Both the position numbers and the translations under genes were made by a program. Of a stretch of DNA of 64,000 nucleotides, positions 1,586-64,000 are shown piece after piece. Within the stretch, counting starts at the first letter, position 1, and every line of letters begins with the position of its first letter. This DNA comes from Cliona cf. orientalis (taxonomy: Eukaryota; Porifera; Demospongiae; Clionaida; Clionaidae): contig OZ005707.1 of the NCBI GenBank assembly GCA_963930775.1, forward strand, positions 5,270,001 to 5,334,000. The letters run 5' to 3'. The notes under the pieces were generated by a model. That model made no database searches and was not told the origin of the DNA. It saw only the letters and a list, made by a program, of their open reading frames with translations.

Positions 1586-4016
1586 ATGGGCGTATCGAGA
1601 GTGTGTCTTGTGCTACTACTGGTAGGGCTGTCGCTCTGCTCGCCAGCTTTCTCCTACAGTCATCATCTATGGAAGCGCCAGAATGGTGCCATGTGTGATC
1701 CTACTCCAGCCAACCTTCGACAATCCTTTGAAACAAATTGCACTGGGCTGAAGGTGGATAACGCCACCTGCGATCGAGCTTGGATGGCTTTCACTAGGGC
1801 GTTTGCACGCCGAAATCCGACTACAGTTATGGCCAGGTTAGTTTCAGGGGCTGCATGGGTGAAATGGGTGGCTAGCCGCATAATACTGGCAGAGAACCCC
1901 CCAATGTACCCACCCACCTTGCGGATTGCATTGAATAGTTCCGAGCTAGCTAGTACTAAACGGCAGTACATAATTATTTCAGTATCACAAAATGTGACCT
2001 GCAATAAGAAAAGTGCCCATTTGTGGTAGTATGAAACAGCACCAATTTTTATCATGATAATTATGGCCAGTTTGCTTTCTAGTGTATAGAGTCACCAACA
2101 TAGAGCGGATACACCTACAGTACATTAATTATACGTATACAATGTATACTCTATACACACTATTACAATAAGCTACATAATGACAAACACAAAGGGTCCC
2201 TTTTCTCACAGCTGGTCACAAAATTAATGATGTGGATCTGAGTGATTGAGAGGCGAGAGAGAATAAAAAATTATCTTGCTAAAAATTAATCAAAGCGGCT
2301 GTGCTAGGGCAAGCAATTGAGCATCAAAAATCCACATAACTCTACATGCTCAGAGCTTACATGCATGGTCTTCTATAACTTTAGTCACAGTAGTGATATA
2401 ATATTATAATAGGTATTCACAACAGTATACATTTACTGAATTCTCCAATTTCCTAGATGTAGTGTATAAGCATGCCTGTCATGCTGCACATACCGTACTA
2501 CTAGCACATGTGTATATATGAAACATGAATAAATGCTAGTAGCTATTGCAACCACTGTGATGCTATTCAGATGAAGCGTAACAGTTTAATACTGCCGTAC
2601 TATACTGTATGTACTCAGCTATATACATGTGTACTCTAGCTCCCCAGGCTAATTATACAGCCTTGATAATAATAATTGTATATTTTGGTATTGTTGTCAA
2701 TGTATATCTTTCTGGTGCAATTGGCAGTGACTATGATGGCTATTTTGAAGTTCTACCAATAGTAGTTGGGCGCAGTCAAAGCCTGTTCTGGTCTGGTGTT
2801 CTGGAGCTGGTGGGAATGGTGAGCTGTATGTGCTCCAGTGGGGCAAATGTGGTCTCATCTGCAAACACACCATCCTCGGCAATATTCAACGGCATTGGGA
2901 ACATAAACTGGTGTGGTACAACTGATCCTTCATCAAATGGTGAGTCTCAGAATCATATTATACTTAAAATAGATCAGAGTTTCAAGCTTGGTACAGCAGC
3001 TCAAACTAGGTGCATTAACAATTTACGATAATATAGCTCTACATACTCTCATAAATAATATTTGGCATAGCCAGGCCCACTTTCATAGCTGTTTATACAA
3101 GAAGTTGTAACTTGTAATGGGACTAGCTCATCAATCCAAAATGGGTAATGTCACCTCTCTAAATGAATAGAGAGTATTGGCGGGATCTAGAGAGGTACGT
3201 ACCAACAGTGGATGGGGATGAGAAACGTCAGTATAGGGATTCTAATGCTTTTATAAGCAGTGTTCTCAATGCAATGTTGATCTTTTCACTATGTTGATTG
3301 ATATCAGTGTATGAAAAACAGTTAATATTCACGGTACACTGTTTACTTCTGCAGATGGTATCGATACCACTAATCAATGCCCTTGCAGTGTGACTACCGC
3401 CTTCTGGGCCAGCTTCTCCATTAATTTTGCACTGTCAGCTCAAGGGACTGCTTTCTTCTTGGGATATGGAGAGAGAGAAAACGGTGCTTTTCAGACGTCT
3501 TCGTTCTTTTCTCAGCATGAGCTACCAAATTTGAGCCCTCCACGTGTGACAGAGGTCGTCGTCATGGTGGTTACAAACAGGACAGGAGAATCATGTGGAA
3601 ATGGCACCTTGGTGACACTCCAGGAGAGAATATTGGCTAAAAACTTGAAGTTTAGCTGCTATGACATCTTCGGAAATCCAACAGTAACTTCCCAAGTGGC
3701 TGCGCTGTCTGTTTGTGCTTCCAAAATTATCACAGCCACGCAGAATGGTATGTATGGTTTAAGATCAACCAATGTCTTACCATGCAAATATCTATTGATT
3801 TACAAACAGGTACCATACCAGCTCCGGATAATTGCTTTGCTTTGAGAATTACGAGTGGAGTAGGTTAGTGTATATAAAGTCTAGCTTCCCAATGATATTA
3901 TTATTAGCAATGAAATTATCGATTTTTTTTTTACAGGTGTAGCCGTGCCTCAAATATTTGCCCTGATTGGTAGCCTGCTGTTGGTGGTTGCCACTCTGCT
4001 TGTGATCAACAACTGA
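1586..4016 (+). CDS. ADP-ribosyl cyclase B1, GPI-anchored type
   Basis: Five exons (1586-1836, 2728-2939, 3355-3747, 3810-3863, 3937-4016) give an unbroken 329-residue protein. The start is the ATG before a signal peptide (MGVSRVCLVLLLVGLSLCS). Cyclase family marks in order: SLFWSGV (W105), NINWCG (145-147), TAFW (W172) and HELPNL (E210). By recalled alignment these match CD38 W125, the DLTWCG motif, W189 and catalytic E226. Where CD38 has the acidic TLEDT motif this protein has ANT (129-131). The protein ends right after a hydrophobic stretch (GSLLLVVATLLVINN), which is a GPI-attachment signal pattern as in CD157. Cyclic ADP-ribose production at the cell surface is the likely role. It lies 140 bp after A1 on the same strand and is duplicated as B2. 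Confidence 0.88.
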
Positions 4017-4595
4017 TAGTAATTATCACTATTAATTTTTTTCTAGGTGTGCGGGGATGTTTTCTTTTTTTCTATTTAGCTGAAATAGGCTCACTAGTAT
4101 AAACAGTAACTGTATAGAGTCCCTGGCAAGTGTAATTAACTATAGACTCAAGTAGAGGCTGATCATGAATTGTATGCATTATGTATACCTTAGATGATTT
4201 CCACTAAGCTCTAGAGCAGGTGGTATTATTAACCCTCGGCGCATGCGTGCGCCGTAGGGTTACGGTAGTCGTTCTGTGTGTCTGTCTGTCTAGACAGACA
4301 GACAGCTGTCTATCTGTTACCACGCTAGCTGCTACATATCTCGTTTGCGAGTCCATTTTTCGGTGTTGCAAGGTTCCTTATGATGTTCCAAACGTGTGGA
4401 TTTCGCCGAAAACGCTTCGTTCGCCAGTTAATTTTCGCGTCATTTGCTGATTCTAAGCTTCTTGACTTTAAATAGAATATTATGTGTCATGCGCTATATA
4501 CGGTAAGTTTCCTCAGTGCATGCGCAGTAGTAGCGAGTCCAAAGAATAACCCGCAAAAATGCGTCGCTTGTTTTCACGCGTTATACTCGATCTAA

Positions 4596-4840
4596 GGCCA
4601 TATAAAATAACTTACTTGATTCTCATCCACCTTTTTCCAAAAAATAGGGGCGGGAGGAGGCATTTTATTTTTATTTTTTACTCATCAGGACACTAGAAAG
4701 AGCAGTATCTGGAGCATATTTTCGAGATATTTGGTAAAGGGTCGCTACTGCGCACGCGCGATAGCAATAAAATTCATAGAGGCGGCCTGTAAAAATTGGG
4801 ACGGGCGGGGATGAGAATCAAGTAAGTTATTTTATATGGC
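4596..4840. mobile_element. PIF/Harbinger-like MITE
   Basis: The inverted repeats begin GGCCATATAAAATAAC and continue into CTTACTTGATTCTCATCC, mirrored at 4807-4840. The element is flanked on both sides by TAA, the 3 bp target duplication typical of PIF/Harbinger elements. There is no coding capacity. Confidence 0.75.
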
Positions 4841-5287
4841 CTAAACGCGGCACCATAAAAGTGACATTACAAATTTTCACGCCCACAAGCCAATTCTCGA
4901 CCGTTTTCCATGCTTCGCACGTCAATCGGCAGCTCTTTTGCTGTACTTTCTGGATTTGATAGTAAGAAACATCAATACATAATTTTTCTGGCATTTATTT
5001 CCGCGGTTTCTGCCTAGGTTTGTGAGTATTCATTACCTCCAAAACTTTTAGTGGTCCTTACTGTGACATAGGCCTATAGGTTTTTTCTAGTGCTGATTTC
5101 AATAATATGCATCATTGCAATTAAGTCATTGATGGCCACTTTTTTGTGGAATAGGCCTATACTTTTTAGGTAATTTCATTCAGATTAATTTTAGTGATAT
5201 AGAAATAGTTAGGCTGATGGCACATTTAGGGGAGTACTGAAATGACGTCATCATATGTATAATATTAATATGTATGTACATGACATT

Positions 5288-6033
5288 GTATATGTAGTGC
5301 ACGTGCACAGGCAGTGATACTAAGACAGTGGGACAGTATGACAGTGAGACACTAAGACAGTTTGACAGTAAGACAGTGGGACAATAAGACAGAGGGACAG
5401 TATGACATGTAAAGTGCGACAGTAAGACAGTGGGACACTAAGACAGTGGGACAGTATGACAGTGCGACAGTAAGACAGTGGGACAGTATGAGTGTATGAT
5501 AGTGGGACACTAAGACAGTGGGACAGTAAGACAGTGGGACACTAAGACAGTGGGACAGTAAGACAGTGGGACACTAAGACAGTGGGACACTAAGACAGTG
5601 GGACAGTATGACAGTGGGACAGTGCGACAGTAAGACAGTGGGACAGTATGAGTGTATGATAGTGGGACACTAAGACAGTGGGACAGTAAGACAGTGGGAC
5701 ACTAAGATATATAGTGGGACAGTATGACAGTGAGACAGTAGCTAAGACCGGGACAGTAGCTATGCATAAGACAGTTGGACAGTATGACATGCTGTCCCAC
5801 AGGCTGTCATTGTAATAGCCCTACTGTCCCACTGTCTTAGTGTCTCACTGTCATACTGTCCCACTGTCTTACTGTCCCTCTGTCTTATTGTCCCACTGTC
5901 ATACTGTCCCACTGTCCACTGTCTTACTGTCCCTCTGTCTTATTGTCCCACTGTCTTACTGTCAAACTGTCTTGGTGTCTCACTGTCATACTGTCCCACT
6001 GTCTTAGTATCACTGCCTGTGCACTACATATAC
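5288..6033. repeat. Foldback element with minisatellite arms
   Basis: The left arm (to about 5790) is an array of a 10-20 bp unit of the type GACAGTGGGACACTAA; the right arm (about 5790-6015) is the same array in reverse complement. Both outer ends carry the same unique sequence (GTATATGTAGTGCAC, then CAGGCAGTGATACTAAGACA, mirrored at 6002-6033). The whole 746 bp could fold into one long hairpin. Foldback transposons with tandem-repeat arms are the closest known class. Confidence 0.8.
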
Positions 6034-6050
6034 ATGTACATAGCTACATA

Positions 6051-7085
6051 TTTATTTATTTATTTATTTATTTATAACAATTTCTGTACAATGAATGACA
6101 GAGATTAACGTGAGTAGCTGAAGTTGTAGCTAATACAGGCACGCAACCAGATATAGTATGAGGTAGATAAACAGGTATAATAAGACTAATGAGTTTATGA
6201 TAAATGAGATTTAAAACAGGGAAGGGAAGGTGAAGATAGCACATAGTGTGGTAGGGAATTCCACTGAGCAATAGTCCCAGGAAAGAAAGAATGCTGGAAT
6301 TGAGCTGTCCTGCAGTGAATGTCTTGCAGTTGCTGGACGTGAGAATGCCTGCTACTGTACCGGATGACCTTAAAATGGAGAGGAGGATCCGGATAAACAA
6401 TCTTATTGTTGACCAACTTGAACAAGTGCCAGAGACTAGCATTAGTACGCCTGGCCGAAAGAGGGGGAACATTACTTTGATTGTAGAGTTTGTCATGGCT
6501 AGCTGACCAGTTCTTTAAACAAACTCTTAAAGCAAATCTTTGAACCTTTTCCAATGCCTCAATATCACAGACTAGATAGGGGTTCCATACAACAGAGCAG
6601 TATTCTAGATGAGGTCGAATAAATGATTTATAAAATTGCAGCAGGGTGGACGATGCAGCATGCTTATAGAAGCGTCGGTATAGTAACCCTATTAGACGCC
6701 TTGCTTTATTGCAGAGACTGGTGACATGTGCAGACTAGGACAGGTCAGAATTAATCTGGATGCCTAGGTACTTTACATTGTTGACAAGCACCAAAGGAGA
6801 ATTATTGACTAAGATAGGAGGGGGGTGAAGTCTCAAACTGCGTTTCCTCGATATGACCATGTAGCAACACTTAGCTGGTTGTAGAGAAAGAAGAGAATTC
6901 GCAACCCAATTCACTATTGCAGTGACATCGCTTTGTAGGATGGTGTAGTCCTCTATACAGGAGACCGGTCTATATAGAGCAATGTCATCTGCAAATAGAG
7001 ACATTGTACTTCCAGGGGAGATCTGGTAGGTAACTTCATTGATGAATAATAAACCAGAAGAGCAGTCTCTGAGACTGTAAATTTC
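6051..7085 (-). mobile_element. LINE retrotransposon 3' fragment (reverse transcriptase C-terminal end)
   Basis: On the minus strand a frame begins near 7085 with GLLFINEV, then LFADDIALYR (6970-7000), the reverse transcriptase catalytic FADD motif. It continues through the thumb region (YLGIQINSDLS) and the typical late motif RPHLEYC to FFPGTIAQWNSLP near the end, stopping at 6195. One in-frame TAG at 6735-6737 interrupts the frame where related elements usually have tryptophan. The 3' end is an AATA-type simple repeat (6051-6077). The copy is truncated at its 5' end and dead. It fits the Jockey/CR1 group of non-LTR elements. Confidence 0.85.
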
Positions 7086-17300: not shown

Positions 17301-18514
17301 CTGGAGCTGGTGGAAATGGTGAGCTGCATGTGCTCCGGGGGGGCAAATGTGGTCTCATCTGCAAACACACCATCCTCGGCAATATTCAACGGCATTGGGA
17401 ACATAAACTGGTGTGGTACAACTGATTCTTCATCAAATGGTGAGTCTCAGAATGATATTATAGTGAATAGCTACTTAAAATAGACCAGAGTTTCAAGCTT
17501 GGTGCGGCAGCTTAAAGGTGCATTAACAATTTACGATAATATAGCTCTACATACTCTCATAAATATATAGCATGGCCAGGCCCACTTTCGTAGCTGTTTA
17601 TACAAGAAGTTGTAACTTGTAACGGGACTGGCTCATCAATCCTAAATGGGTAATGTCACCTCTCTAAATGAATAGAGAGTATTGGCGGGATCTAGAGAGG
17701 TACGTACCAACAGTGGATGGGGATGAGAAACGTCAGTATAGGGATTCTAATGCTTTTATAAGCGGTGTTCTCAATGCACTGTTGATCTTTTCACTATGAT
17801 TGTTATCAGTGTATGAAAAACAGTTATTATTCACGGTACACTGTTTACTTCTGCAGATGGTATTGATACCACTAATCAATGCCCTTGCAGTGTGACTACC
17901 GCCTTCTGGGCCAGCTTCTCCATTAATTTTGCACTGTCAGCTCAAGGGACTGCTTTCTTCCTGGGATATGGAGAGAAAGAAAATGGTGCTTTTCAGACGT
18001 CTTCGTTCTTTTCTCAGCATGAGCTACCAAATTTGAGCCCTCCACGTGTGACAGAGGTCGTCGTTATGGTGGTTACAAACAGGACAGGAGAATCATGTGG
18101 AAATGGCACCTTGGTGACACTCCAGGAGAGAATATTGGCTAGAAACTTGAAGTTTAGCTGCTATGACGTCTTCGGAAATCCAACAGTAACTTCCCAAGTG
18201 GATGCACTGTCTGTTTGTGCTTCCAAAATTATCACAGCCAAGCAGAATGGTATGGTTTAAGATCAACCAAGGTCTCACCATGCAAATATCTATTGATTTA
18301 CAAACAGGTGCCATACCAGCTCCGGATAATTGCTTTGCTTTGAGAATTACGAGTGGAGTAGGTTAGTGTATATAAAGTCTAGCTTCCCAATGATATTATT
18401 ATTAGCAATGAAATTATCGATTTTTTTTTTACAGGTGTAGCCGTGCCTCAAATATTTGCCCTGATTGGTAGCCTGCTGTTGGTGGTTGCCACTCTGCTTG
18501 TGATCAACAACTGA
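14387..18514 (+). CDS. ADP-ribosyl cyclase B2, GPI-anchored type
   Basis: Five exons (14,387-14,637, 17,228-17,439, 17,857-18,249, 18,308-18,361, 18,435-18,514) have exactly the lengths of the B1 exons and give 329 residues. Signal peptide, FWSGV, NINWCG, TAFW, HELPNL and the short hydrophobic GPI-type C-terminus are all kept. In the 393 bp third exon I count 10 differences from B1. The TLEDT acidic motif of CD38 is replaced by ANT, as in B1. Intron 1 has grown from 891 bp in B1 to 2590 bp through four inverted-repeat insertions. Both copies look functional, so this is a recent gene duplication. Confidence 0.88.
14647..15107. mobile_element. MULE-type MITE in B2 intron 1
   Basis: TAGTCTCGCAAGCCAGACCC begins inverted repeats running at least 29 bp and continuing imperfectly for more than 100 bp. 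A 9 bp direct repeat GTTAGTTTC flanks the element (14,638-14,646 and 15,108-15,116). B1 has one GTTAGTTTC at the same place (1837-1845). Nine-base duplications are typical of Mutator-like elements. Confidence 0.85.
15368..15790. mobile_element. Large near-perfect palindrome in B2 intron 1
   Basis: Arms of about 145 bp start TATACATGCTTTCTACGC and mirror each other almost exactly around a centre of about 130 bp. B1 lacks the insertion. It is a foldback or MITE-type element with no coding content. Confidence 0.8.
15853..16359. mobile_element. TIR element with TGGGGCGAGC ends in B2 intron 1
   Basis: TGGGGCGAGCC and CGCGAACCCCACACAAG at the left are mirrored by CTTGTGTGGGGCTCGC and GGCTCGCCCCA at the right. 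It is absent from B1. Confidence 0.72.
16843..17169. mobile_element. TIR element with poly-G tract in B2 intron 1
   Basis: TAGGCGTAGGAA is mirrored by TTCCTACGCCTA. A run of 23 G follows the left end. It is absent from B1. The GGCGTAGGAA end resembles those at 20,035 and, more loosely, 20,859, so they may form one family. Confidence 0.7.
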
Positions 18515-36174: not shown

Positions 36175-37106
36175 TTAATCTTTAACACATTTCCAGTACA
36201 AAATATGAACAACAATTAATAGAATCAAAACGAAAATGTCACAAAACACAAAAATAGATGGAAATAATAGTACATCCCTCCTTTTCTGGACAGTCAGAAC
36301 AGTCAAATTAGCATCAGCACAGCTAGCGCTGGATTCAAACAACGTACAGAGTGGATCCCTGGTGAATTCCCAAGGCATGTTGACATAGAACTGCTGAGTG
36401 TTTCCAGGTGAAACTTCAACGCTCCTGGGCCTACTGATACGATTGATCTCCGTCAAGTTGTACGTCCTAGCTAGTACAAAGTATGTGAGCCCGCCGAATC
36501 CCGTGCTGAAATCGGTAACAAATAATGAGTAATAATCTGAACGCTCCACATTAAAGACAATGGGATTAGTAGTATTGTATTTGTCTGCCTCAAAACAGCT
36601 ATACTCCTGCATATTGCTGATTGTGTTTTCGCTACAATCATCTGGTATTAATATAGAATTACTCGAAGCGTATTGATAAGCAGAAGTTGATGAAATTATC
36701 CACAATGTACGTCCTTGAAAAGCGGGCTCCACCATGACAACAATCTGAGAGCCGGCCAAAAGGTGCATCAAGTTAATAAATGGAAGTTTCTCCGTCTGGG
36801 TTGGGAGAGAGTCGCACACTATGCCAGGAATAATGTGAATAGTTCCAGAGCAGGTAGGAGAGCTGTCAAGACGTCGACCTAGACGAACTTGAACTGTTTC
36901 TATCCAGTTGGAAACAAGGCCAAATTCAATCACAGTGAGGCTTCCGGATGGTCGCTGTAGCGTAAAGGGAGGGGGCGACGTTGAACGAGGGAGTTGGGAA
37001 AGAGATACCAGTCCAACTATCCCCAGCACCAAGAGGGAGATGAAGATGGAATAGCAGCTGGACCAGAAGCAGCATTGACGCCGCCCACACCTTCCTGCAT
37101 GTGATG

Positions 37107-37140
<34 letters not shown>

Positions 37141-38722
37141 TACACACACATGATAATAGTTATCTGCCAGTAATTGGGGTGCATGAGCAATTACTGGCAG
37201 ATAACTATTTTGTTGGTAGTTGACCTCTGTTCATTATTGGCCTACTTTATGTTGACCCAACCCCTTCCCGTTGCTGGCAAATTGCCTATAAAAACTTTGG
37301 TTGCTAAACAACTACCAACAAACATACATACATACATACATACATACATGTACAGGAGATATCAAGTACATAATATTAATCTTCCATTGTTGTGTGTCAA
37401 TATTCTGCTCCTCAGCATTGCCTAATTAAATATGCCTATATACATGAATAAAATTATAGGGCCAAAAAGCTTTGATATGATTATACTAACTTACAGGCTC
37501 CACCCAAGAACAACATCTTTCCAATACTGTTTTGCCACCATTGAACTTGGTCTATTAACGTACATCCCTTGTCCACCTTCTCCCTCTAGATCTACTATTA
37601 ACTTCGTACCCAGACCGCGGGAGGAAAGGAGGAAACTGGCCTGGTACCTATTATGCAAATAGTTTCAGGAACACGTGATCATGCCACGGATAATACGTAG
37701 AATGCAGATGAAATATCCAGTGAATGGTAGATCAAGGCTCAACATAGGATTTGCTGCCTTCCTACACTTTGAGAATGGTAATTGTCGTTAGGCACACAAA
37801 TGATATTATTACCTTAAGCTATTGATTTAAACTTTTTTCGTCTGAATGCACGCTAATAATTATTATTAACTTAAGTCATTGATTTGTTTTTATCAAAATG
37901 ATATGGAATGGTTTACTGACACGTACTGAAAAATATAGAAGATATGCAATTCACAACTACGTACGTACCTTGCTTGGAGGGCTCAATCGGATGTTCCACA
38001 GTCAATGTACTTCTAGATCTACGGTCCTCAACCCTAATCAGAACACTTTTAGGATCATCATCGACAAATTCTGAGTCAATTCCATTTCCACCTTTCTTCT
38101 CCTTACTACCACGTTCATCCTTTGGATCCTCCGGGGAAGAGGAAACGCTGTTTGTGGGAACGTAGTCATTCAGTGCCTCCTGCAGACTGTCAGCCAGCTC
38201 CTTGTGTGCATCTCCTGCTTCCGGTACACTCTCTCTCAGGCATTGGATTAGCCGCATCAAAAAATCATCGTGGCCACAGCTGGGAATTATCGCAAATAGC
38301 CTGTCAATTCTGTCGTGATTGGTGTCGGTCTGTGGAATGTTCAGGAGCTCACGGTACTCCTTGTGTGGGATGAGGCCGTTCTTGTTGAGCAGAGAGAGAA
38401 TGGATTTGAAGTTCAGGCACCGTCTGAACTTATCGTGATGGTTGTTCAGAATTGTTGTCTGATAAGACGTAGGAACTTGGACAGCTATACAGAATGAAAT
38501 TTAGTGTAGATTCATATTGATAACCGGTCTGTAGTAAATACTATTAAGGGTTAGCTACTATAAACCAAATAATTTCTACAAAATTAATCATGATATTATG
38601 TATTATCTGAGCAGTGGCTAACCTGGCTCTTTCAATTCGTCTTCTGCTGCTGAAGGTATTAACAACGCGCTCAGTCCTGCAGCCGCTTGAGAAACGTATT
38701 CACTATCTAGGTGCTCAGCCAT
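36175..38722 (-). CDS. CARD protein with two membrane segments and a large ectodomain (CARD-2TM 1)
   Basis: Three exons (38623-38722, 37969-38484, 36175-37094) join in frame to 511 residues. Residues about 46-140 form a CARD-like helical domain (FRRCLNFKSILSLLNKNGLI, EYRELL, RIDRLFAIIPSCGHDDFLMR), followed by a charged Ser/Glu/Lys linker. Membrane segment 1 is at about 213-237 (FISLLVLGIVGLVSL). An ectodomain of about 230 residues has cysteines and the glycosylation motif YNLTE. Membrane segment 2 (about 478-503) is followed by a tail of some eight residues ending KCVKD. CARDs recruit partners in apoptosis and innate immunity, so a cytosolic CARD on a two-pass surface protein is unusual. A paralogue is at 57,383. 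CUB-A starts 306 bp downstream on the same strand; CUB-B diverges 207 bp upstream. The CARD call rests on pattern, not a search. Confidence 0.8.
37155..37209. repeat. Perfect 22 bp hairpin in CARD-2TM 1 intron 2
   Basis: AATAGTTATCTGCCAGTAAT continues into a 22 bp arm that is mirrored exactly after an 11-base loop. A second inverted pair (TTTGTTGGTAGTTG / CAACTACCAACAAA) surrounds the next 110 bp, so this is probably an element end. Confidence 0.6.
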
Positions 38723-57382: not shown

Positions 57383-60300
57383 ATGGCTGAGCAAGCAGGT
57401 AAAGCTACTAGGGCACTTGATACAATTCATGTTCCCAAAAGATCACGACATCTGCTCAGGCAAGATAGGGTTCTCCGCAGTAAGCATCAAAAGCTGAGAG
57501 AGAAACTTAATTTCACAGCAATTTACTCCCATTTGAACGAATGCAGACTTCTCCCTTACTGTGATCACTCTAAGTTACTTGACGGAACGCTAACAGAGCA
57601 GGCAAGAATTGATTCAATCATTGAAAACTTAACGAGATGCAACAAAGATAATTATCTCATGGAATTCATTGTTTGCCTGAAAAGGAGTGCAGATGGTACG
57701 GGTGATGGACATTCAGAGCTGGTCCAGAGCCTTCAGGCTGCTTATGAAGTTGAGGCAGAAGATGAGGACTCAGACTGTAAGTAGCTAGCTAATCTAGACT
57801 CAATAAATTACTATAATCCATCATCCTATGTATATCCACAACTAGATCTACAGTATATTGAACAATCATAATAATAATATTATGTCACATATACATATTA
57901 TTATTATGATTGATTGCACATGTATGAACTTGAAAAAGTAGGATCCCAAAATTAAATTCAACTGCAAACAGCTATTTTTGGCCCTAGTCACCAGTGCAGC
58001 ACTTAGTGGGCCTGGCGCCGCCTCGACACCAAATAATAAGTAAGAAGCTTGGAGTCCTAAATAAAAAGCACTTGTGAGTTTCATAAAGGCTCCCAAACAT
58101 CTTCACATCTTCTTAGAGGAATCATTCTGGTGCATTCTGAGCACAAAGTTATTACCATGATTTTTGGAGACTTCTTTGTATGCCTATAAAAGCCACCTCA
58201 CCCAAAATAATAACAGTGAGACAGCCACTGCAGAGAATCCATGTGTACACATTTGAGGCTACATGCATACGCATTGTATAATAATATGCCAGGATAAGCT
58301 CAGTGTGATTAATTCAATATGCATCATGAATGTAAATCTACTCAGTATAAGATTTCCTTTATGACGTGCTTATCAAAACATGACATGTTTGGCAGAGAAT
58401 AGCTAGGGCAGAGTTTTTATGAAATATAATTATATAGAAAATTTGTCCTATATATCCTACACATTTCCTACATGCATGCATGAATTCTGAGTATTGTCTA
58501 GTGATCATGGCAGCTCTGTACACTTATTGGTCCAAGTCTTTGGGGTATAGATGTACATACATAATAATAATTATTACTGGGTAGATGAATTTCACTGGGG
58601 AGGCCCCCCTATAGCTAGCTCATATTTTGAACTAGGGGGGCTGAAGCTCCCCTCAGCCCCCATGGTTCTTAATATGCCAGAACCCGGTACAAGTACTATA
58701 TTAAATTATAGCATCAATTTAAAAAAGTAGATCTTTCAATATCCATGCATGTAGCTACATCACAGCAGATCCTAGTCTAAGAATGCATGGCATGATTACT
58801 ACCGACAGTAATCTATTTCTCTCAGCTTTAATTTCTATGCTCAGACAATGACTAACACTACTGTGCATGTGCTAGTGGCCTATAAGGAAGTTAGTTGTTG
58901 TTGGATGAATACAAAGGTTACAAATTTGTGCAGGTCAGCTGATAAAGTTGTGTATGTCATACATTGGCCATGGACAGGTGTGCTTTTGACCTATTATGTC
59001 AATGTACTGGTATACACGTTTAACTTATAAGCACTCATGATACCGTGCACGTGGATTGAGCTAGCTATATATAGCAGTTTTGCATGACATGAGCATTTCA
59101 GGGTAACTGACTTAGAGGAGCATGTTAGGGGTGCATTTATAGGGAAAGAATAATATTAAAAATCAAGGCCCAGGTGCCACAGAATACGAAATATGGCAAT
59201 AATTTTAAAATGATGATTGTCATACTAATTCTTTGTGGACAAATAATAATAATTATTATTAGCCATACTTCTCCTGCAGCTGACAGCAGATTGCAGGGAG
59301 AACAAATAATTGATACAGACTCAACTCGTGGCAAAGGTACTTGATCTACTATATAGTACTCTTATAATGGTTAATCATAGATGCTATAGACTACGGGTTA
59401 AGTTAACACCATTATGATAATATAATAAGGAGTAAAGTATAGCTACTAGTAATATCTACTGGTATGGACCGGATAGGGAAAAAGGTAGTACTTAATTACT
59501 CAGCTAAGCCATGATGTTGTAATACCGTAGTGTCCCAGGCAATTGCAAGTTATGGGTGCTTACCCGGGACACTACGGTAGTTCAATCAAGCTCATTTGCA
59601 ATCATGAACATGAATGCTTAATTTCCTACCATCCAGCTGCCGTAACTGAAACAAGCACAAAAAAGAACAAACACTGCCTTATTTGTGGATGTGTGCTCAT
59701 AATGCTTCCACTTATACTAGTACTGATGATCATCGTTCTAGTGATAGTACTCTCCCAAACTCCACGCATAAATAATGACCCAGGACCAGATATGGTCAGG
59801 CCATTGTTAACTAACAGACCAGCAGTCGAAGGGCAGACTCGATTACTCGAAGTTGACCTTGGAACTGATCCATTTTGGGTGTTACAAGCTGACTTCCAAA
59901 TCGAGGATTGCACAGGGACAGTGCTGACAATACAAGGAGTACAGTGCCATGAACTCCCCAGAAAGGTCATCAAAGAGACGACTCCCAGTCGATTTCTCTA
60001 CTATGCATACCTATTACCAGGATCAGTTGTAAACATTACTGTTGCTGATACCATAGATAATAGTGGGGTGGAGGTATGGGCGATGAATTCTGAGGCTTGG
60101 AAACTAACAGATCTTGGGTTAAATCTTGACTCATGCAGTGTCCCTCCCTCTGGTTCCAGTTGTTTTCTAGCACAGAGCAAAGCTGGACAAACAATTCAAC
60201 AGGAAATTGAAAAGGCAGATTTTTATTTCTATTTTACCAATAGACTATCGAATGGGGTTAGATTCACATATGTGGCAGAGCAGTATCTGCACAATCTCAC

Positions 60301-60619
60301 AGAAGTTCGTCAACTATACAGCCCAACAGAGACCCATATTATTAGGGATCGGTCTCAAACGGTTACCATTTCTCCCATTTTTGATTTTCAACAAAATAAG
60401 TGTGTCATGCTGAGCTCATCGTGCACAAGTACACAAAGCCATGCTGTAACAATTGGGAATCTGAAGAGACGAATGGACATTCTAGTCTTCCCTGGAGTTG
60501 GTGGAATCATCGTGCTGTTGGTGGCTCTGTCAGTGGTTAGTGTCTACATTGCAGTGGTTGTGTGGTCTCACTGGAAGAGGAAATACAAGAGCAAGACAGT
60601 CATGGATTTAGCTATTTAG
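57383..60619 (+). CDS. CARD protein with two membrane segments and a large ectodomain (CARD-2TM 2)
   Basis: Three exons (57,383-57,776, 59,280-59,336, 59,637-60,619), each junction in phase 1, give 477 residues. Residues about 15-120 are CARD-like (LREKLNFTAIYSHLNECRLL, RIDSIIENLTRCNKDNYLME, LVQSLQ), in the same order as CARD-2TM 1. After an acidic linker come membrane segment 1 (about 164-190), an ectodomain with CTGT, C-x-x-LP, SSCFLA, ADFYFYFTNRLSNG and HNLTE, a KRRMDILVFPG stretch, membrane segment 2 (about 430-456) and a basic tail ending MDLAI. It shares with CARD-2TM 1 the ectodomain cysteines, the NLTE site and the KRR-D-L-FP motif just before segment 2. A 58 bp MITE (59,523-59,580) lies in the last intron and supplies a false upstream ATG. 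Confidence 0.82.
57777..59279. other. CARD-2TM 2 intron 1
   Basis: A 1.5 kb AT-rich intron with no exon seen. An imperfect inverted repeat near 58,600-58,650 (GGAGGCCCCCC / GGGGGG) may be a small transposon remnant. Confidence 0.5.
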
Positions 60620-60995: not shown

Positions 60996-62560
60996 ATGAA
61001 AGCTCAAATATTAATTTTATTGCTTTGTTATGTTCTACAATTTGCCAATGCTGCCCCTCAGAAGAATGTGCTACTAATGTTCATTGATGATGGCGGCTTT
61101 GAGATGGGAGTCTACGGCAACAAGGCAGTGAATACACCCAACATCGATAATTTTGCCAAGAGAGCAGTTACCTTCAAGCATGGCTTTACCTCTGTCAGCA
61201 GCTGCTCACCAAGCAGATCAGCTCTTCTAACAGGTATTAGCTATACATATCATTCTTGACTCTCTGGATACTAACCTTATAGTGTATTGCATATTACTGT
61301 ACATTTATAGGTCTACCGCAACATCAGAATGGAATGTATGGGCTTCATAGCACATTCATGCACTTTGAGTCCTTTCTATCTGTCAACAGTCTTCCATTGA
61401 TCTTAAATAGCACTCATGGTGACTACTGGTATGGAATTATTGGGAAGAAACATATTGGACCTGACCACGTCTATCCATTCCCATTCTCGTACACAGAGCT
61501 AGATGGCTATGACATCAACCAAGTTGGCAGAAACATAACCTTGATGAATGAATATGTACGCAAATTCTTGACTGAGGCTCAGCAAAAAAAGAAGCCATTC
61601 TTTCTCTACGTTGCCTTTCATGATGTGCATCGAGGTTGTAATAAAACATTCTGTGAGCATTTCGGGGATGGAAGCGGAGAAAATAATGTGATACCAGACT
61701 GGAAACCAATCGATTACAAGCCTGAAGATGTTGAGGTGCCCCCTTACCTTCCAGACACACCTGCAACTCGTATGGACCTTGCAGCTCTATACCGTGTAAC
61801 GAACAGAATGGACCAAGGAGTTGGACTCTTTCTAAAATCCTTACAAGACTTTGGCTATGAAAATAACACCCTCGTTATTTTGACTTCAGACAATGGCATC
61901 CCATTCCCAAATGCAAAGACTAATCTCTACGAGCCTGGAATGGGAGAGCCAATGATAATTTCCAACCCCATGGCGCCTGAGAGGTGGGGACAACAAACCG
62001 AGGCGCTAGCTAGCACTACTGACATCGTTCCGACTCTCTTGGACTGGTTTGGACTGAAGCATCAAGCGCATAGTGCAGTTTTGCATGGGAAATCATTGCT
62101 GCCAGTCTTACATGCAGAGCCCACCACAGGATATGACTTGGCTTTCTCGAGCCATGACCTTCATGAGATAACCATGTACTACCCCATGCGTGTCGTGAGG
62201 GATAAAAGTCATCGATTGATACACAACATCAACTTCAAAATGCCCTACCCAATGGCCGGTGATATATTTGCTTCACTGACTTTCCAAGGCATTCTCAATA
62301 GCACATCGCAAAATGAATCCACTAAATGGTTCAAAACGCTGGATCAATACTATTACAGAGATGAGTTTGAACTCTACGACCTCAATAAAGATCCACTGGA
62401 ATCTAAGAACGTGATAGATGATCCAGCCTATCAAGATATTGCTAAGGAGTTGAAGGAGAAATTGAGGCAGTGGCTGGTCAATACCAGTGACCCCTGGCTG
62501 TGTATGCCCGAGGGGGAAAAGACAGGACATCAATGCAGCCCCTTTTTAAATGGACTATAA
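60996..62560 (+). CDS. SGSH: Heparan N-sulfatase (N-sulfoglucosamine sulfohydrolase) 1
   Basis: Two exons (60,996-61,233 and 61,311-62,560) join in phase 1 to 495 residues; the human enzyme has 502. A signal peptide starts it (MKAQILILLLCYVLQFANA). Active-site positions keep the human numbering at the start: D31 and D32 (calcium), C70 in CSPSR (the formylglycine cysteine) and R74. Later come GKKHIGP, FHDVHRG and [20 protein letters not shown] is near-identical to the human enzyme. It removes N-linked sulfate from glucosamine during lysosomal heparan sulfate breakdown. Several NXT/S sites fit a lysosomal glycoprotein. The C-terminus (DPWLCMPEG) also matches. A tandem paralogue follows 346 bp downstream. 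Confidence 0.95.
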
Positions 62561-62906: not shown

Positions 62907-64000
62907 ATGGTGTCCCAAACTCATTCGGTCAGTTTTCTGTTACTTCTGGGCAGTGTGATATTAACTAGTGCAACTGCACTACCAGGCCCTGTGGATGATA
63001 AAAAGAATGTGCTGCTGATTTTCATTGACGATGGTGGATTCCAAATGGGAGTCTATGGCAACAAGGCAGTCAAAACACCCAACATCGATAGCTTTGCCAA
63101 GAGAGCTGTTGTCTTCAAGCACGGCTTTACCTCTGTTAGTAGCTGCTCACCAAGCAGATCAGCTCTTCTAACAGGTACAAATAAACACCCATAGCTGTAG
63201 TATCTGAATTGCGTAGCTAGTGAGCTACTTAATTTTTCCTCACTAAGGTTTGCCTCAGCACCAGAATGGGATGTATGGATTACATCATGCTGAGCATCAC
63301 TTTCAATCCTTTGATGATGTACAAAGTCTTCCTAGGATTCTAAACAAGACTGGTGGTGACTACTGGTATGGGATCATTGGAAAGAAACACTTTGGACCAG
63401 ACACTGTCTATCCATTCCCATTCTCGTACACTGAGTTGGACGGTTACAGTCTCAACCTAGTGGGGAGAAATATAACATACATGAACACTTTGGTGCAAAA
63501 ATTCTTCACAGAGGCTAAGCAGAAGGATAAACCTTTCTTTCTCTACGTTGCATTTTTTGATGTGCACCGAGGCTGTGGGGCCACATTCTGTGAACACTAT
63601 GGAGATGGGACTGGGAAAAACAATGTGATACCAGATTGGACCCCTATCGACTACAAGCCTGAAGATGTTGAGGTGCCCCCTTACCTTCCAGACACACCTG
63701 CTACGCGTATGGATATTGCAGCTCAGTATCGTGCTGTGAGTCGAATGGATCAAGGTGTTGGACTGTTTCTGAAATCTCTACAAGACTACGGCTATGGTAA
63801 CAATACCCTAGTCATACTCACAGCTGATAATGGCATCCCTTTCCCCAATGCAAAAACTAATCTCTACGAGTCTGGAATGGGAGAGCCAATGATACTTTCC
63901 AATCCCATGGCCCCTGAGAGGTGGGGACAACAGACCGAGGCTCTAGCTAGCACTACTGACATCGTTCCGACCATCTTGGACTGGTTCAATATTAAGTATC
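62907..64000 (+). CDS. SGSH: Heparan N-sulfatase 2 (partial, cut by window end)
   Basis: Exon 1 is 62,907-63,174 and exon 2 runs from 63,248 past the window end; the intron position matches SGSH 1. There is a signal peptide ([16 protein letters not shown]), D41/D42, C80 in CSPSR, R84, GKKHFGP and ADNGIPFP. One change stands out: AFFDVHRG where SGSH 1 and human have AFHD.H, so the first histidine of the pair is phenylalanine; the second is kept. The coding sequence is very close to SGSH 1 in many blocks, which points to a tandem duplication. Activity is likely but this substitution should be noted. Confidence 0.92.

Follow-up and report, generated by a model that had tools for sequence, protein, structure and literature searches.

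The 64,000-nucleotide stretch analyzed here (positions 5,270,001 to 5,334,000 of contig OZ005707.1, assembly GCA_963930775.1; hereafter, the window) comes from the demosponge Cliona cf. orientalis and holds, at 36175..38722 on the minus strand, a CARD followed by a two-pass membrane part. This layout was confirmed, and the identity of the CARD and the architecture as a whole are shown by computation. Judged by its sequence, this predicted gene (copy 1) is a member of a small family encoding CARD-bearing two-pass membrane proteins in this sponge genome, and a second member (copy 2) with the same layout occupies 57383-60619, plus strand. We propose that the product is probably an in-out-in membrane sensor or membrane-bound adaptor, in which clustering of the ectodomain would bring a cytosolic CARD to a CARD partner. 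The parts of the family are listed below, with the positions of copies 1 and 2 given in the window and those of copies 3 and 4 by chromosome.

38623..38722, minus strand: copy 1 exon 1, start codon and first 33 residues of the protein (donor CCAG/GTTAG)
37969..38484, minus strand: copy 1 exon 2, CARD and charged linker (donor AAG/GTACG; in-frame piece window:37970-38482:-)
38162..38473, minus strand: CARD, residues about 38-141, placed by profile and fold comparison
36175..37094, minus strand: copy 1 exon 3, first and second transmembrane segments (TM1 and TM2) with the ectodomain between them, tail, and stop (in-frame piece window:36178-37092:-)
36994..37062, minus strand: TM1, residues 217-239, from hydropathy and flank counts, ends set by hand
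36265..36993, minus strand: ectodomain between TM1 and TM2, 243 residues, six cysteines, three sequons
36196..36264, minus strand: TM2, residues 483-505, from hydropathy, ends set by hand
57383..57776, plus strand: copy 2 exon 1, CARD
59280..59336, plus strand: copy 2 exon 2, short linker exon of 57 nt, inferred from splice signals
59637..60619, plus strand: copy 2 exon 3, TM1, ectodomain, TM2, basic tail, and stop
C19:4646-4648 kb: copy 3, membrane exon and upstream CARD exon
C11:9181-9187 kb: copy 4, membrane exon and upstream CARD exon

The gene model of copy 1 has three exons on the minus strand (38722-38623, 38484-37969, and 37094-36175), which run from a start codon at 38722 to a stop codon at 36175 and, joined at predicted splices with GT..AG borders, yield 511 amino acids without an internal stop. 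The layout is not a product of chance, because copy 2 repeats it: an alignment of the two proteins covers almost the full length at 26% identity (125 bits, E value of 1e-35). They also share the N-terminal MAE, and the reading frame of copy 2 is preserved with or without its exon 2. Between the two copies, the CARD exon agrees at 55/66/37% of codon positions 1/2/3 and the membrane exon at 39/55/29%, a pattern that argues for coding constraint and hence for both halves being kept as protein. The junction between the CARD block and the membrane block is in phase 1 in both gene models and, by eye in the printed sequence, also in copies 3 and 4. Constraint on both halves, taken with these matching junctions, therefore favors a single gene. 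Further, genome searches with single exons recovered the membrane exon at four loci (E of 1e-9 or better), and at all four, which are distributed over two chromosomes (C19, which holds the window, and C11), a CARD exon lies upstream on the same strand, in agreement with the view of an earlier note, made from the sequence alone, that the CARD and the two-pass part are fused.

Two of these four loci, copies 3 and 4, look disrupted as read, through decay or assembly error; copy 3 has a frame change within the CARD exon and a stop just after TM2, and copy 4 has a frame change within the ectodomain. A fifth piece, at C5:8344862, matches copy 3 at 42% over 52 residues and is, by eye, nearer still to copy 4. 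It resembles only the membrane-near end of these two copies, and in the 9.5 kb around it (L069) a hidden Markov model (HMM) built from CARDs of the same genome reached at most 7.0 bits (E of 0.29). A weak match on C12 from the genome search proved to be a hydrophobic stretch; hits on C9 and C17 were also obtained. Within an intron of copy 4 lies a 571-residue open reading frame (ORF; L062:5024-6736, plus strand), which resembles a tyrosine recombinase.

The CARD of the family has significant profile similarity to accepted CARDs and is predicted to adopt a six-helix death fold nearest to CARDs, with its assignment as a CARD rather than a DEATH domain resting on fold comparison. The earlier note had recognized a CARD-like domain in copy 1 and had named the lack of a death-fold match as grounds for abandoning it; such a match was found both by profile and by fold. 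The Pfam CARD model (PF00619), which it had put forward as a test, matched neither the full protein nor the exon pieces. Searched against the genome itself, PF00619 gave 49 places, with the exons of copies 1 and 2 not among them; 30 of these 49 served as the source of the host-CARD HMM (19 were left out, and 8 of the 30 were dropped as near-duplicates), and the first CARD piece of copy 3 was left out of the family CARD profile. In a tree of CARDs, copies 1, 2, and 4 group together with a support of 0.96, the tree being built on 75 columns and its deeper branches not being trustworthy. Njmu-R1, the top phmmer match of the copy 1 CARD among PDB sequences (E of 0.0028), was set aside as chance because Pfam gives it for copy 1 only (E of 0.16) and it is absent from the matches of the family profile.

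The two strong hydrophobic segments described by the earlier note are equally evident: in copy 1, hydropathy is highest around residues 217-239 and 483-505, with best 19-residue means of 2.42 and 3.09. Copy 1 has 243 residues between them and copy 2 has 245, with six cysteines in each, and one sequon, NLT, is kept in copies 1-3. A basic, cysteine-rich stretch precedes TM1 of copy 1, and in both copies there are four basic residues before TM1 and two after it; the predicted topology therefore places the CARD inside. The tails after TM2 are only 6 and 15 residues long in copies 1 and 2, respectively, before the stop. By eye, all four copies share a basic motif, [KS][RK]R[RM]D[IV]L, on the ectodomain flank of TM2, and it may serve as a protease site or a membrane contact. 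The membrane exon matched no Pfam family below an E of 0.2, and its profile found nothing better than 0.074 among PDB sequences. Searches with this profile gave 26 pattern stretches in viral contigs and 18 stretches in prokaryote genomes, none of which was confirmed, and the gene DNA of copy 1 had no match in phages.

The ectodomain does have a weak resemblance to the APD1-4-type two-pass ectodomain of the same genome, which we regard as a lead. The genome has 18 PF16041 matches over cut-off and 16 of PF16040, none of them at the family loci. The APD-type sample comprised 12 of 19 PF16041 matches, and by eye the ORFs at these 12 places have the layout of the present family, with an ectodomain between two hydrophobic segments, except those of L076 and L079, which in the sampled sequence begin behind the first segment. 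In profile-profile comparison including the transmembrane segments, hhalign gave 90.3% for the family versus APD (8.4% for the reversed profile; at most 0.4% in 20 shuffles). The ectodomain alone, with copy 4 taken only up to its frame change, gave 63.3% over 89 columns (0.6% reversed; at most 1.1% in 50 shuffles) but only 14.9% in global mode, and the ectodomains of single copies reached 0.1-10.7% against the APD profile, below significance. An HMM of the host APD ORFs scored pieces of copies 2-4 at E values of 0.38-1.4, no better than unrelated ORFs, and the copy 1 exon was not among the matches listed (to an E of about 8.7). In plants, the APD1-4 ectodomain is part of membrane E3 ligases with a C-terminal RING after TM2, whereas the present family lacks both a PF16040/PF16041 match and a RING after TM2; conversely, the host-CARD HMM found no CARD in the 12 APD-type ORFs. 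Thus, of the earlier note's candidate undescribed receptor family, the CARD, both membrane segments, the ectodomain, and the small family stand, while the word undescribed may not apply in full to the ectodomain, given this weak APD1-4 likeness.

Taking these features together, the predicted protein would have its CARD in the cytosol, followed by a flexible charged linker, TM1, an ectodomain that is disulfide paired and probably glycosylated, TM2, and a short tail. A ligand, a neighbor, or a clustering event at the ectodomain would gather CARDs under the membrane, and this cluster might then recruit another CARD protein, such as a caspase with a CARD, an NLR that bears one, or one of the CARD/DEATH adaptors encoded in the same genome. 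Topology in this scheme is a prediction, and we infer the disulfides, glycosylation, clustering, partner, and output. Several observations weigh against it. PF00619 is silent for the full protein and six exon pieces even at E values up to 10; the copy 1 CARD alone finds no CARD chain among PDB sequences with phmmer, and the family CARD profile finds no CARD there either (best, 0.76, a ribosomal protein), and in the fold comparison chance alone may take helical models to about 13 (VIA note). Basic residues also occur just outside TM2 (KRR/KRRMD), and the sided charge rule is therefore clear for TM1 only. In the ectodomain, for which the structure model is poor (pLDDT of 49), no ligand-binding family is recognized with confidence, and the apparent disruption of copies 3 and 4 may mean that constraint on the family has relaxed.

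Some of the same observations would suit a membrane-anchored CARD regulator or decoy, which sequesters or dampens its partners by means of the CARD and uses the ectodomain for placement rather than sensing. The divergence of the CARD beyond the reach of Pfam, the very short tails, and the apparent disruption of half the copies fit this idea, which we nevertheless consider unlikely, since the ectodomain retains its cysteines and codon-level constraint across 26% identity and pure placement would hardly account for this. Another reading is that the two-pass part assembles as a channel or transporter subunit whose state the CARD regulates or reports. P2X and ASIC channels share the in-out-in layout, and a large cysteine-paired ectodomain is in keeping with such a role; against this, the membrane exon lacks Pfam matches below 0.2 and PDB sequence matches below 0.07, a test made weak by the poor ectodomain model, and we hold this reading to be improbable. 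That the halves are two adjacent genes, one for a soluble CARD protein and one for a two-pass protein, is more improbable still. The gene joins are predicted from sequence, a point that also counts against our proposal, and introns of about 0.9 kb in copy 1 and of 1.5 plus 0.3 kb in copy 2 separate the halves; yet these occur together in the same order and strand at all four loci on the two chromosomes, with matching phase-1 junctions (copies 3 and 4 by eye).

If the family encodes a membrane sensor or adaptor, as we propose, partners might be found in the same genome. In addition to the 49 CARD places, there are 47 exon-level caspase-domain places, one of which, on C19, has a CARD place about 0.8 kb away. 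Of 1292 DEATH-domain candidates, 150 were scored, giving a minimum of 150 places over cut-off. This complement of CARD, DEATH, and caspase domains is in keeping with a sponge. One locus (L067) has a CARD-like exon of 23.7 bits (Pfam cut-off of 23.9) followed by NACHT and LRR. A group of clustered CARD genes at C11:9068748-9133879, some 48 kb away from copy 4, encodes long charged stretches (coiled coil by eye), with at least one ORF also having a DEATH match (C11:9133142). The CARD and caspase places, with a CARD-caspase at C19:1.63 Mb, the CARD-bearing NLR at L067, and the C11 cluster are possible partners. Among L062-L083, the family CARD HMM has its best match outside the family at L064 (C10:8647500-8653500; ORFs 2710-3015 and 3147-5999, plus strand), where a CARD exon precedes a hydrophobic segment and NB-ARC; should that segment span the membrane, it would place the CARD on one side and NB-ARC on the other, an odd arrangement.

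Several parallels are offered by known systems. Most known CARDs are those of cytosolic sensors, adaptors, and caspases. MAVS likewise has an N-terminal CARD on a membrane, and its CARD filaments are among the fold matches, but it has a single C-terminal anchor and no ectodomain, in contrast to the two segments that bracket 243 residues here. Death receptors, among them DR6, whose C-terminal domain is CARD-like (2dbh), are single-pass proteins with TNFR repeats outside and a C-terminal death fold, whereas the present family is two-pass with an N-terminal CARD and no Pfam match outside. It also does not fall in with the TNFR type, as there are two hydrophobic segments and no Pfam family in the membrane exons (E of <0.2) or in the whole protein. 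NLRs with predicted transmembrane segments are reported for Dysidea avara (PMC12909245) and for actiniarians (PMC5094078), and L064 offers a comparable case in this genome; unlike these, the family lacks NACHT or NB-ARC, for which neither exon set gave a Pfam match, whereas L064 and L067 did. A sponge transcript described as “Gene containing Ig domains and a CARD domain” likewise joins a CARD to a typically extracellular domain, with the difference that no Ig domain was matched here and that the accessible part of that paper does not state its membrane layout (PMC6208332). One survey reported neither CARD nor Death domains in the choanoflagellates it covered (PMC6040629). None of the open-licence PMC papers searched, as far as their available text goes, describes a CARD with a two-pass ectodomain, and within these limits the family is a kind of death-fold membrane protein whose arrangement is new.

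Other features of the window surround the two copies. The head-to-head neighbor of copy 1, a plus-strand gene from 38930 onward with start codons about 0.2 kb apart, has a signal-peptide-like start by eye, and two sulfatase exons in tandem (61283-62557 and 63247-63999, plus strand) lie just behind copy 2. An ADP-ribosyl cyclase exon at 3315-3842, plus strand (PF02267, E of 3e-21), has a 98-99% identical second copy at 17817-18257, plus strand, within a duplication spaced 14.5 kb, and a long repeat array with a spacing of 8 bases and inverted copies occupies 5276-6063.

Should the APD1-4 lead hold, the joining of such an ectodomain to a CARD at the base of animals might, as a tentative and rather doubtful extension, represent a class of surface receptor that feeds death-fold signaling directly, with neither an NLR nor a TNF receptor involved. 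If our proposal is correct, the family would provide a one-protein route from the outside of the cell to caspase or NF-kB-type outputs, in which a cysteine-paired outside domain and an inside CARD could allow an event at the surface to trigger a caspase-type response. It would then mean that early animals tried couplings of the surface to the death fold other than TNF receptors and Toll receptors.
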